From Geothrix oryzisoli (GTDB taxonomy: Bacteria > Acidobacteriota > Holophagae > Holophagales > Holophagaceae): 64,000 nucleotides of DNA. This document shows positions 47,606-51,451 of this stretch, in pieces (position 1 is the first letter of the stretch; each line of letters starts with the position of its first letter). The stretch is from NCBI RefSeq assembly GCF_022808865.1, contig NZ_JAKZLB010000003.1, positions 315,875 through 379,874 of the forward strand, given 5' to 3'. Below the pieces are notes generated by a model. It was not told the origin of the DNA and did no database searches. It worked only from the letters and a program-made list of their open reading frames with translations. Both the position numbers and the translations under genes were made by a program.

Positions 47606-47631
47606 CCTGAGCGCGCGCTCGCGCGCTCAGG
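47606..47631. terminator. Hairpin between convergent purC and the M16-like gene
   Basis: A 12-bp perfect stem (CCTGAGCGCGCG with CGCGCGCTCAGG) with a two-base loop. It overlaps the last codons of the minus-strand gene. No T-tract, so this is a strong hairpin rather than a classical terminator. Confidence 0.55.
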
Positions 47632-48856
47632 ATCCGGCGGGGGGTTTCACCACCGCCGGGGCAGCCAGCACGCCCGCCCGAAGCCGGGCCGGGTCCAGCC
47701 AGCGGCGGAGGTCTCCGTTCAGGACCTCCACGGTGATGGCCTCCAGGCGTGCCGGCGATACGGCCCGGCCGCGGGCCTCGGCCATGGCCTCGTCCACCAG
47801 GGTGCCCGGATGAAGGCTGGTGAGGGCCCGGCCTGCCGACCAGGCGGCCTTCGCCCGGCGCAGATCCGCCTCCGTGAAGCCGCGCTGTCTGAGGGTCTGC
47901 AGGCGTTCCAGCAGGGAGGTCCCGGCGGCGGAGGCGGACCCCTGCGGCTCGGTTTCCAGCGCCGCGACCAGGTCGGGCCCTTCCAGCCGCAATTGAGCGG
48001 GGAACAGGACCGGATCTCCGGGCAGGAGCAGGGTCAGCAGGGCCTCCATTTCCGGGCTCAGGTCCGCCGGCTCCGCGGCGACCGCAAAGGCCAGGGGAGC
48101 GGCTCCGGCGGCGGGCACCTCGATGGGCGCGGATCCGGGCGCCGCGGCGGCTGGAGGCGGGGCGGCCAGGGCCGCGGGGGGCTGCCGCGGGACCGTCCAG
48201 GTCCCGAAGGTCAGGAACACCAGCCGCTTGGCCTGTTCCAGTCCGAGGTCGCCGTGGAGGACCAGGATCGCCTGGTCGGGACGCAACACCCGGCCGTAGA
48301 AAGTGGCCAGATCCTCGTAGGTGACCCCCGCCAGCCCGTCGAGGGTGGGCGCCTGGCGGGTCCAGTCGGACTCCAGGAGCTGTCTCAGCTTGGCGCGGGG
48401 GGAGGCCTCCAGCCGCTCCGTATCCCGCCAGCAGGCGAGGCGCTCGGCCTCCAGCGTGGAGGGGTCGAGGATCGAGCGGAGGACGCGGTCGGCGAGCAGG
48501 CCCAGGGCCATATCCTGGTCGCGGCTCCGGGCGACCAGGCTCCAGGAGAGGCCGTCCGATCGGAGCGCCGGGGCCAGGTCGATGCCCGCCCCCGCCAGGA
48601 GCTGCTCGAAGTCGCCGGCCCGGAAGGCGCCGGCATCCGAGTGTCCGAGGACGCGCAGGGCCAGGGGAGCCAGCCCGGGACGGGCGGCCGAGCCGGGGTC
48701 CAGGGGAAGGTGCAGACGGGCCCTCACCAGGGGGCGCTCGTGGTCTTCCAGCAGGACCACCCGCAACCCGTTGGGCAGACGGAACGGCTGGGGCCGGATC
48801 TGGGCCTGGCTCTGGGCGGTGAGCGCGAATGCGGCCAGGGCCGCCAGGGCTCTCAT
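47627..48856 (-). CDS. M16-family peptidase-like protein lacking the zinc motif (second of pair)
   Basis: 409 residues with signal peptide (MRALAALAAFALTAQSQA). The M16 fold is evident from LPNGLRVVLLEDHERPLVRARLHLPLDPGSAARPG and AILVLHGDLGLEQAKRLVFLTFGTW. At the HxxEH position it reads GLAPLALR (Pro64, Leu67, Arg68), so zinc cannot bind in the usual way. It probably works as a non-catalytic partner or binding protein in the periplasm. The start overlaps the preceding M16-like gene by four bases. Confidence 0.82.
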   Translation of the reverse strand: MRALAALAAFALTAQSQAQIRPQPFRLPNGLRVVLLEDHERPLVRARLHLPLDPGSAARPGLAPLALRVLGHSDAGAFRAGDFEQLLAGAGIDLAPALRSDGLSWSLVARSRDQDMALGLLADRVLRSILDPSTLEAERLACWRDTERLEASPRAKLRQLLESDWTRQAPTLDGLAGVTYEDLATFYGRVLRPDQAILVLHGDLGLEQAKRLVFLTFGTWTVPRQPPAALAAPPPAAAAPGSAPIEVPAAGAAPLAFAVAAEPADLSPEMEALLTLLLPGDPVLFPAQLRLEGPDLVAALETEPQGSASAAGTSLLERLQTLRQRGFTEADLRRAKAAWSAGRALTSLHPGTLVDEAMAEARGRAVSPARLEAITVEVLNGDLRRWLDPARLRAGVLAAPAVVKPPAGS

Positions 48857-50523
48857 CGCTTCTCCGGGGCCAGCTGGGCTTCCAGGAGCTTGAGGGTGCG
48901 CTGGCGTTCCTCGATGCTGAGCATGCGGAGCTGGCGGAGCCCCTCGGAAACCATGTGCTCGCGCTGGGCCAGGTCCTCGATGCGCGTGGCGGCGAGGGCC
49001 TTCAACACCCGGGCGGTCTCGGCCTCCAGGGGATCCCGGCTTTCCTCTGTGTCGGCCTGCAGCCAGAGGGTGGTCCGGTGGCTGGGGTTCAGCCAGGTCC
49101 GGGCGGCCGCCTGGACGGCTTCGGGTCCGAGGTTCCGCAGGCGCTGGAGCTCCTGGTCCGCCTGCCGCCAGTCGCCCGCCTCCACCCAGGCCAGGCCCAG
49201 GGCCCGGGCCAGTGCGGCGGGTTCGTCCTGGATCCGGAGCTGGTCCACATCGATTTGGGTCAGGGCCCGCTGCCAGTCGCCCGCGGGGATCGGTTCCTGC
49301 TGGAGCCGCAGGATCTCCGTGTGGAGGGCGCCCTCGAGTTCCGCGAGGCTGTGCCCCGCGGTCGGCACCGCCCGGATGACCAGGAGTCCCGGCAGCCGTC
49401 CCCCTGGAACATCCACCTGGACCTCCACGGATTCGGCCAGCGCCTTCTGGCGCACCAGCCGCTGGGCCAGCCGGCCGGAGGGGCCGCTTCCCAGCAGGCC
49501 CGCGGCCAGCCGCAGGGCGAGGTGGTCGCGATGGGGCCGCGGGGGGATGCGCCAGCCCACCAGCAGCTCGGGGGTCTTGCCCGCGGTGGCCTGGATGCGC
49601 CGGTCCCCGAGGCCGGCGGGGATCTCGGGGAGGAGCGGATCCTCGGCGCTGGCGCCGACCAGGCCGGCCGGCAGGGTGCCGAAGGACCGGTCCAGGAGCG
49701 GCAGGGCCGTCTCCAGGTTCAGTCCGCCCACCAGCACCAGGGTGAGCCGGTCGGGGCGGAAGGCCTGGCGTGCCCAGGCCTGGAGGTCCGAGCGGCGCAT
49801 GGCCTCCAGGGCGGGCAGGTGGTCGGCCAGGTCCCGGCCGTAGGGATGGCCGGGGAGGGCGGCACCCTGGAGCAGGGCCGGCCCTTGGGGCCCCTGGGCC
49901 CGGAGCTCGGCCATCAGGGCGGCCCGGACCTCGGAGAAGCGGCTCAGCTGGAGGAGGGTCAGGCGCTGGACCTCCGTGCGGCACCAGAACTCGAAGGCGT
50001 CGGCCGGCAGCTCGATCTGCACGAGCAGGGCGTCCGCGCCGGCGCTGGCGGTCATCCGCCCTCCGCGGGCGGCATAGAGATCCGTCAAGGGCGCGCTGGA
50101 AAACCGCGCCCTCACGGATTGGTGCAGGGTCCAGAGCCGCGCCCCCAGGGCCGGCCCCTGGGCGGTGCCTTCGGGATCCTGCCGCTGCCGGAGCTGGTCT
50201 ACCCTCAGGGCCTCGAGGAGTCCCTCCTCCTCCCGGAGCAGGGCATCAAGGGAGCCGGGTCCCTTGGCCGTTTCGAGGTCCTCGGACCAGGTGGAGCCAT
50301 AGAGGGTCCGGGCCAGCAGGTCGGTGGCGCCGGCCAGGGCCGGGGGTTCCTCCGCCCGCCCGCCCCGGAAGACGAGGGTCGCGTGGAAGGCGTTCAGTCC
50401 GCGGCGCTCCACCAGCAGCAGCCGGACGCCATTGGCGAGCCGCCGTTCCTGCACGTCCGCCAGATGGGGCGTCTGGGCCTGCAGGCCCAGCGTGGCGAGG
50501 AGGAGCATGGCCAGAGGTCGCAT
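48853..50523 (-). CDS. M16-family peptidase-like protein lacking the zinc motif (first of pair)
   Basis: 556 residues with signal peptide (MRPLAMLLLATLGLQAQ). RRLANGVRLLLVERRGLNAFHATLVFRGGRAEE and LTLVLVGGLNLETALPLLDRSFG mark the two M16 domains. Where HxxEH is expected it reads GATDLLAR (Asp68, Ala71, Arg72); no other HxxEH occurs. Together with the following gene it resembles the paired M16B alpha/beta subunits, but here neither has a catalytic centre. It starts 22 bases after the DUF4097 gene. Confidence 0.82.
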   Translation of the reverse strand: MRPLAMLLLATLGLQAQTPHLADVQERRLANGVRLLLVERRGLNAFHATLVFRGGRAEEPPALAGATDLLARTLYGSTWSEDLETAKGPGSLDALLREEEGLLEALRVDQLRQRQDPEGTAQGPALGARLWTLHQSVRARFSSAPLTDLYAARGGRMTASAGADALLVQIELPADAFEFWCRTEVQRLTLLQLSRFSEVRAALMAELRAQGPQGPALLQGAALPGHPYGRDLADHLPALEAMRRSDLQAWARQAFRPDRLTLVLVGGLNLETALPLLDRSFGTLPAGLVGASAEDPLLPEIPAGLGDRRIQATAGKTPELLVGWRIPPRPHRDHLALRLAAGLLGSGPSGRLAQRLVRQKALAESVEVQVDVPGGRLPGLLVIRAVPTAGHSLAELEGALHTEILRLQQEPIPAGDWQRALTQIDVDQLRIQDEPAALARALGLAWVEAGDWRQADQELQRLRNLGPEAVQAAARTWLNPSHRTTLWLQADTEESRDPLEAETARVLKALAATRIEDLAQREHMVSEGLRQLRMLSIEERQRTLKLLEAQLAPEKR

Positions 50524-50545
50524 GGGCCCCAGGGTACTACCGGTT

Positions 50546-51451
50546 CTACTTCACCCGGATGCTGCCGTTGGTGGTTTCGAGGCGGATCGGCTGGGTCCGC
50601 CCGGGCACCTTCACATGGGCGCTGTGCTTGGTCATCTCGAGGACCTGGGCGCCGGGGACCTTGATCTCCATGGAGCCGTTGCTGTTCTCGGCCAGCAGGT
50701 CGCCCGTGGCCTTGCCCAGCTCCACCTCGATGCTGCCGTTGGTGGATTCCAGGTGGATGCCTTCACCCCAGCCATCCAGGCTCCGGGCCCGGACGCTGCC
50801 GTTGGTGGTCTCCAGGCGGATGCCGCCGGCCACATCCTCGAGGACGATGCGGCCGTTGGTGGTGCCGCCCTTGATCCGGGCCATCAGGTTCCGGGCCTCG
50901 ATGGGGCCGTTGGTGGTGTCGGCCAGCACTTCGCCCCGCACGTCGGCCACCAGGATGGCGCCATTGGTGGCTTCGCAGCGGGCGTAGCCCTCGAGGTGCT
51001 CCACGGCCACCGTGCCGTTGGTCGTGCGGAAGTGGCCCAGCAGCTTGCGGGGCACCTGGAGCGTCATCTCACAGCGGGGGCTGATGTAGAGGCCGAAACT
51101 CCAGGAGGGCTGCTGGAACATCGCCTCGATGTCCAGGTCCTGGCCCTTCCGCTGGAGCACGAGCTCCACCCGGCGCTTGTCACTGTCCCGGATCTGGGCG
51201 GTGAGGAAGACCTCCTCCTTGTCCCAGCCCGTCACCCGGATGCCGCCGTTGCGGTTCTTCACCCAGAGCTTGGAGCCGTAGGTCAGCTTCTCGGTCCGCT
51301 GCTCCGTCCGCGAGCCGGAGGGCATGTCCACCCCGATCATGGGCGCGGGAGGGGCCGGAGGAGCCGGCGGCGCGGGCGGGGGTGGGGGCGCCTGGGCCAG
51401 CAGGGCGCTCCCGACCAGGAACAGGGGGATCCAGCGGCTGGAAACGGTCAT
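50546..51451 (-). CDS. Exported DUF4097-type beta-repeat protein
   Basis: 301 residues. A signal peptide, then a Pro/Ala linker ([14 protein letters not shown]), then a right-handed beta-type array in which TTNG or a close variant (TTNGTV, ATNGAI, TTNGPI, TTNGRI, TTNGSV, STNGSI, NSNGSM, TTNGSI) recurs about every 20 residues, ending in TTNGSIRVK. This is the DUF4097 (DUF4098) adhesin-like repeat. Function unknown; likely a periplasmic or surface scaffold. First gene of an operon with the two M16-like proteins. Confidence 0.82.

Follow-up and report, generated by a model that had tools for sequence, protein, structure and literature searches.

A 64,000-nucleotide stretch of the Geothrix oryzisoli genome (the window; contig 3, 315875-379874) carries, at positions 47627-51451, three minus-strand genes that form a compact unit in the order D, A, B: a DUF4097 gene (D) followed by the genes for two M16 subunits (A and B). 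An earlier note on this DNA had described the unit as an operon, and its coordinates are exact. Judged by sequence, A has lost the metal site and B the substrate anchor of the M16B peptidases, and the two (referred to below as the dead pair) are predicted not to form an M16 zinc protease. One inactive half is usual in M16 pairs; here is a bacterial pair in which neither half appears able to cut and which has nevertheless been kept by selection across its family.

Zinc site of A and R/Y pair of B

At the catalytic position the earlier note read GATDLLAR in A and GLAPLALR in B, found no HxxEH in either protein, and concluded that both had lost the active site. The two readings are borne out by alignment. 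The trio locus was read in 48 of the 77 genomes of the family (the rest being seen as search rows or via other loci), and HxxEH is present at the homologous site in 0/48 A proteins, including a 194-amino acid (aa) fragment from locus L108, and in 0/45 B proteins. In the 47 A proteins other than this fragment, the first catalytic column is D in 30, E in 15, T in one and H in one; the second (the Glu position) is A in 43, S in two, T in one and G in one; and the third is R in 37, Q in five, H in three, Y in one and A in one. The HxxEH of A is replaced by a mostly conserved [DE]xxAR, the acid and arginine of which may form a salt bridge. The H, E and H columns are all intact in 31/31 control A-position relatives from outside the clade of dead pairs. 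Twelve of these control pairs belong to the family, with genome G065 contributing two, and the other 19 come from other parts of the phylum; they were picked among high-scoring matches rather than at random, and their activity is read from the motif. Elsewhere in A and B just two HxxEH strings were found, neither of them at the site. The B of L061 (= L168) has HLEEH approximately 30 residues ahead of it, a chance occurrence, and the A of L180 has HLQEH beyond it.

The conclusion that both subunits lost their active site stands for A but not for B. As the earlier note had said, M16 pairs normally have a single HxxEH subunit: in 31/31 control pairs the motif lies in the A-position protein, and 0/31 B-position proteins have it. 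Because control A-position proteins carry HxxEH and B-position proteins never do, B corresponds to the ordinary inactive partner and descends from the normally inactive half, without having lost an active site of its own. What B lost instead is an arginine/tyrosine (R/Y) pair in domain D4, which PMC12731061 describes as a substrate-binding element. R-x(2,4)-G-x-x-Y, a pattern for this pair derived from the alignments, is matched by 31/31 control partners (29/31 under a stricter form) and, under either form, by 0/47 B proteins of dead pairs (those of the 45 trio rows and of L103 and L105; the B of L157 is not among them). In the aligned rows shown, the whole R/Y segment is missing from B. Thus the dead pair has neither HxxEH in one subunit nor the R/Y pair in its partner, both of which are expected of a functional M16B peptidase. 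A different metal site was ruled out, as neither A nor B has a His or Cys that is invariant or close to it (24 aligned rows each).

Both proteins are still recognizable as M16 subunits. PF05193, the M16 C-terminal domain, is the sole Pfam match of A (E 8.9e-26); B matches the same family above the cut-off (E 7.3e-8) and PF00675, the N-terminal domain, below the threshold (0.015). The AlphaFold2 (AF2) model of A has a predicted local distance difference test score (pLDDT) of 87.1 and its best structural match is 5euf_A (VIA Z 38.1, 401 residues, 2.1 Å). The model of B (pLDDT 89.3) matches 5euf_B (VIA Z 32.6, 380 residues, 3.2 Å) and 3amj_B (31.2, 369 residues, 3.0 Å). In these models A and B both retain the M16B fold, as the earlier note had supposed. 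It had also proposed that both keep signal peptides, and this agrees with a crude hydropathy scan of M-starting rows (start sites are approximate in some), in which an N-terminal hydrophobic segment is present in 41/42 A, 33/35 B and 43/44 D proteins; in the same rows, two D proteins and one B protein have a lipobox-like string.

D matches PF13349 (DUF4097) with an E value of 1.3e-8 (35 bits, with a cut-off of 22.9) and contains two cysteines that are invariant (45/45). The hydrophobic N-terminus and these cysteines together suggest that D is exported, perhaps with a disulfide. D is also the most conserved of the three proteins, with a mean column identity of 69%, compared to 54% for A and 40% for B. 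Within A, conservation peaks in a C-terminal helical extension, where the mean share of the majority residue is 0.75 vs 0.62-0.63 in the two main domains; the same extension is present in g11, in L157 and in the HVLEH-bearing L094.

A probable single, old loss, followed by selection

A maximum-likelihood tree was built from 32 A proteins, among which the dead rows are 16 from trio loci, L103 and L105 (both g11), and L157; L093, a trio row on a long branch, was not included. The dead A proteins form one clade (support 97/95), the sister of which is L094, from genome G060 of the same family. L094 has an intact HVLEH and its partner retains the R/Y pair. A quick tree of 56 rows, which includes L093 and omits L157, likewise has L094 as sister (98) to a single dead clade (100). 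The stem of this clade is long: 1.53 changes per column in the 56-row tree, and 0.4 plus 1.01 in the 32-protein tree. A single loss of catalysis on this stem is the simplest reading; independent losses were considered and are not needed, since the dead set is one clade, although L157 is on a long branch and its placement is less sure. L157 itself (G058:C185, 3678-7081) is a second, distinct M16 pair lacking HxxEH, with ALFAR at the site of A; the trio is present in the same genome.

The three genes are kept under selection. In 11 pairs of relatives, the ratio of nonsynonymous to synonymous change (dN/dS; Nei-Gojobori, with dS near or beyond saturation in two pairs) ranges from 0.05 to 0.24 in D, from 0.10 to 0.26 in A and from 0.13 to 0.51 in B, the last being 0.13-0.33 in 10/11 pairs. 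The A frame is open in all 48 loci read. Four A search rows (G050, G065, G069 and G071) were flagged with one TGA, and a profile search shows none in G050 and G065 (G069 and G071 were not in that search); we read the flagged TGA as the true stop codon of the gene, at which the alignment ends. A pseudogene or a sequencing error is ruled out by the open frames, the dN/dS values and the conservation, and the loss of the catalytic site is, on these alignments, old and retained.

Association with D and the role of the pair

The link to a beta-repeat gene of the DUF4097 type, which the earlier note drew from the one locus, holds across the family. D, A and B are complete and on one strand in 42/48 loci, and on the same strand wherever present. 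D is missing in 3/48 loci, two of them cut by a contig end and one (L091, from G050) with 2.45 kb of upstream sequence. B is missing in three others, all at contig ends, so that A and B occur together in 45/48 and five of the six incomplete loci are cut by contig ends. The D-A gap is 22 base pairs (bp) in the window and 9-41 bp in 37/45 loci, across eight genera; the A and B genes share 4 bp in 33/45. The largest D-A gaps are those of L076 and L077 (= L186, L187), where a second DUF4097 gene lies in between; some genera have a tandem DUF4097 pair ahead of the M16 pair (L076, L077 and L083 [= L186, L187 and L189]). The same genes are carried by Geothrix campi and G. fermentans (A identity 82% and 79%, respectively) and by records named Holophagaceae bacterium and Acidobacteria bacterium, as well as one labelled as a Bacillota bacterium (L195, 36% identity), a label that is probably wrong. 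Among 36 further contig loci, 33 have D and the remaining three begin at a contig end; since these loci were retrieved via one motif of the A C-terminal extension and largely repeat the family genomes, they do not count as independent. No wider home for the trio was found: at E 1e-20 D has a match in none of the 16 genomes that belong to the class but not to the family, and 11 loci opened from the weak D matches outside the family (a sample of 396 phylum genomes, best E 2.5e-35) have no M16 gene in their flanks.

Our favoured explanation, which we put at about even chances, is that A and B form an exported, non-cutting M16B heterodimer that acts as a dedicated scaffold or holdase for D or for a complex of D. 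A and B would pair as their M16B relatives do; a partner, rather than a substrate to be cut, would be bound in the cavity of the clamshell or by the conserved helices at the C-terminus of A; the partner or client would be D or a complex containing it; and the pair would serve this DUF4097 envelope protein in a manner comparable to that of core proteins I and II of the mitochondrial bc1 complex. This explanation builds on the combined loss of the zinc site and the R/Y pair, the retained folds, dN/dS values below 1, the single dead clade and the tight D-A-B order. The earlier note suggested that the clamshell serves as a binding chamber or chaperone; this would fit, and nearly equally good candidates are a regulator of the HxxEH-bearing M16 proteins of the same genome and a purely structural component.

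Several observations weigh against a dedicated partnership with D. G050 keeps A and B without D and has no D match genome-wide at E 1e-20, and two g11 genomes (G075 and G073) have the dead pair with no adjacent D: A and B can persist without D beside them. The missing D of g11 looks secondary, since the g11 rows nest within a 12-row set that otherwise consists of trio loci (99/99, 32-protein tree), although their place within the dead clade is unsettled in the 56-row tree. The g2 genomes G001-G003 have one A match each, and those opened (G001 and G003) are HLFEH pairs rather than dead pairs. No M16 gene was found beside DUF4097 relatives outside the trio (0/19 loci, flanks of up to approximately 5 kb a side). 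A purC-like gene lies outside the unit in 40/50 loci, and because this neighbour is almost equally constant, the neighbourhood alone is weak evidence of partnership. Finally, B is the least constrained of the three proteins, with one pair of relatives at a dN/dS of 0.51.

Some of these observations would also be expected if the dead pair were a general binder of peptides or unfolded proteins (a holdase, carrier or envelope peptide sink) and its adjacency to D reflected shared regulation or inheritance. This alternative, which we consider possible but rather unlikely, is consistent with the M16 fold of the models, with the loci in which A and B are present and D is missing, and with the near-constant purC-like gene. 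It accounts less well for a D-A spacing of 9-41 bp on one strand in 37/45 loci, across eight genera; moreover, in 39 of its 40 placements the purC-like gene lies on the other strand.

Alternatively, the dead pair might act as a regulator of the cell's own active M16 enzymes, through mixed dimers or by holding their substrates. The search for an active M16 elsewhere that the earlier note proposed as a check gave at least three M16 loci with intact HxxEH in the same 3.23-Mb genome: an HLFEH protein of 453 aa with its partner, an HFLEH protein of 422 aa, and a fused HLLEH protein of 934 aa. The dead pair is not the sole M16 system of the cell, and pseudoenzymes are known to regulate active relatives (PMC11266112). 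However, A and B occur together at every locus that is not cut by a contig end, and an exchange of partners would not need both; in addition, dead A proteins are only 24-31% identical to the opened HxxEH relatives of the family. We regard regulation of this kind as unlikely, but as a live alternative.

It is very improbable that the pair is still a hydrolase with an unusual site. In favour of this, the third zinc-ligand column, a downstream Glu, is E in the A of the window, E in 24/47 and D in 9/47 A proteins (31/31 controls have E), where the choice of the ligand between two neighbouring Glu columns is our reading. Against it, the catalytic Glu is gone in 47/47, no more than one His is left (first position 1/47, second His position 3/47), the R/Y pair is absent, and neither protein has an invariant His or Cys. 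Decay without function, to which the fast divergence of B and the long stem of the dead clade might point, can be dismissed as scarcely credible given 48 open A frames, dN/dS of at most 0.26 for A in 11/11 pairs and at most 0.33 for B in 10/11, the maintained gene order and the highly conserved extension of A.

Related systems and other features of the region

The closest parallel to the dead pair is the mitochondrial bc1 core I/II pair, an M16B heterodimer with little or no remaining catalytic activity. According to PMC12731061, the active-site motif is 'not detected' in yeast and reads YFVEH in bovine core I, the R/Y pair is absent, and the cores are believed to have a structural role, their cavity holding other subunits or having them placed against it. 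The cores differ from A and B in being subunits of a respiratory complex on the matrix side and in the glycine-rich loop of core II; A and B are bacterial, apparently secreted, encoded beside a DUF4097 gene and distinguished by the C-terminal extension of A. A bolder version of our favoured explanation, which we offer tentatively and with some doubt, is that the dead pair is an independent bacterial counterpart of the bc1 cores: a clamshell without catalysis turned into an envelope scaffold or chaperone for a secreted DUF4097 protein, with the zinc site converted to a conserved acid-arginine pair and the working surface shifted to the C-terminal extension of A.

The dead pair resembles the bacterial M16B pairs SPH2681/SPH2682, TTHA1264/TTHA1265 and PA0371/PA0372 in having two genes and the same fold, and structural comparisons with A or B place 3ami/3amj, 3eoq/5hxk/7v4y and 4nnz among the top hits. 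SPH2681/SPH2682 and TTHA1264/TTHA1265 are described as active heterodimers in PMC12731061. PA0371/PA0372 is titled zinc protease in the PDB, and the dead pair lacks both the zinc site and the R/Y pair. The sister pair L094 shares the extension of A but keeps HVLEH and the R/Y pair, and no D is present in the 8.4 kb read there. D shares DUF4097 with LiaG, LiaX and other Toastrack proteins, but its matches to the NCBIfam LiaG and LiaX models are weak and far below the cut-offs (27.5 vs 285 and 39.5 vs 350 bits, respectively). Toastrack proteins are predicted to be intracellular, with phage shock protein (PSP) partners, in PMC11237479; compared to those described there, D differs in its N-terminal hydrophobic segment, its two invariant cysteines and its M16 neighbours.

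Mitochondria thus already provide an example of an M16B pair that lacks a working site. The bacterial case may be new: no bacterial M16 pair with both halves inactive is among the matches listed in searches of open-licence papers, which does not prove absence, and no paper of that collection has both DUF4097 and M16. If the proposed role is correct, the dead pair and its sister, which retains the site, would provide a natural before/after series from protease to binding scaffold, amenable to testing in cultured Geothrix, and the pair would be a candidate partner for DUF4097 proteins.

The features of the unit are listed in the table below.

Table 1. Positions of the D-A-B unit and its features in the window
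Feature	Coordinates	Strand	Remarks
Gene D	50546..51451	-	DUF4097/Toastrack beta-helix protein, 301 aa; first in unit; likely secreted
Gene A	48853..50523	-	M16 subunit, 556 aa; position of normally catalytic half; HxxEH lost
Gene B	47627..48856	-	M16 subunit, 409 aa; position of normally inactive partner; R/Y pair lost
ATGA overlap, A stop / B start	48853..48856	-	B start codon inside A stop codon
Former zinc site of A, residues 68-72	50308..50322	-	DLLAR replacing HxxEH; alignment with 31 HxxEH-bearing relatives
GLAPLALR of B	48653..48676	-	HxxEH column; family alignment
C-terminal helical extension of A	48874..48981	-	Approximately residues 515-550; best-conserved part of A
Cys127 codon of D	51071..51073	-	Invariant, 45/45 D
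Cys159 codon of D	50975..50977	-	Invariant, 45/45 D

No promoter-like sites were found, terminator-like sites number 1 vs 1.3 expected, and no Rfam families matched. The genes on either side of the unit, recognized by eye, are thiolase-like (upstream and divergent) and purC-like (downstream and convergent). The dead pair of the g11 locus L105 (2762-7564) lies between open reading frames that resemble a heptosyltransferase and purC (also by eye). Another g11 locus, L155 (G075:C178, 3-5347), has an unusual tandem expansion of seven consecutive same-strand DUF4097-like frames, the outermost of which is cut by the contig end. Two related genes lie just beyond the edges of the window: the 934-aa fused HLLEH protein, a two-in-one M16, is encoded to its left (G000:C3, approximately 312839-315643), some 48 kb from the dead pair, and a second DUF4097 gene, with no M16 gene in the flanks read, is located approximately 1.9 kb to its right (G000:C3:381751-382500).

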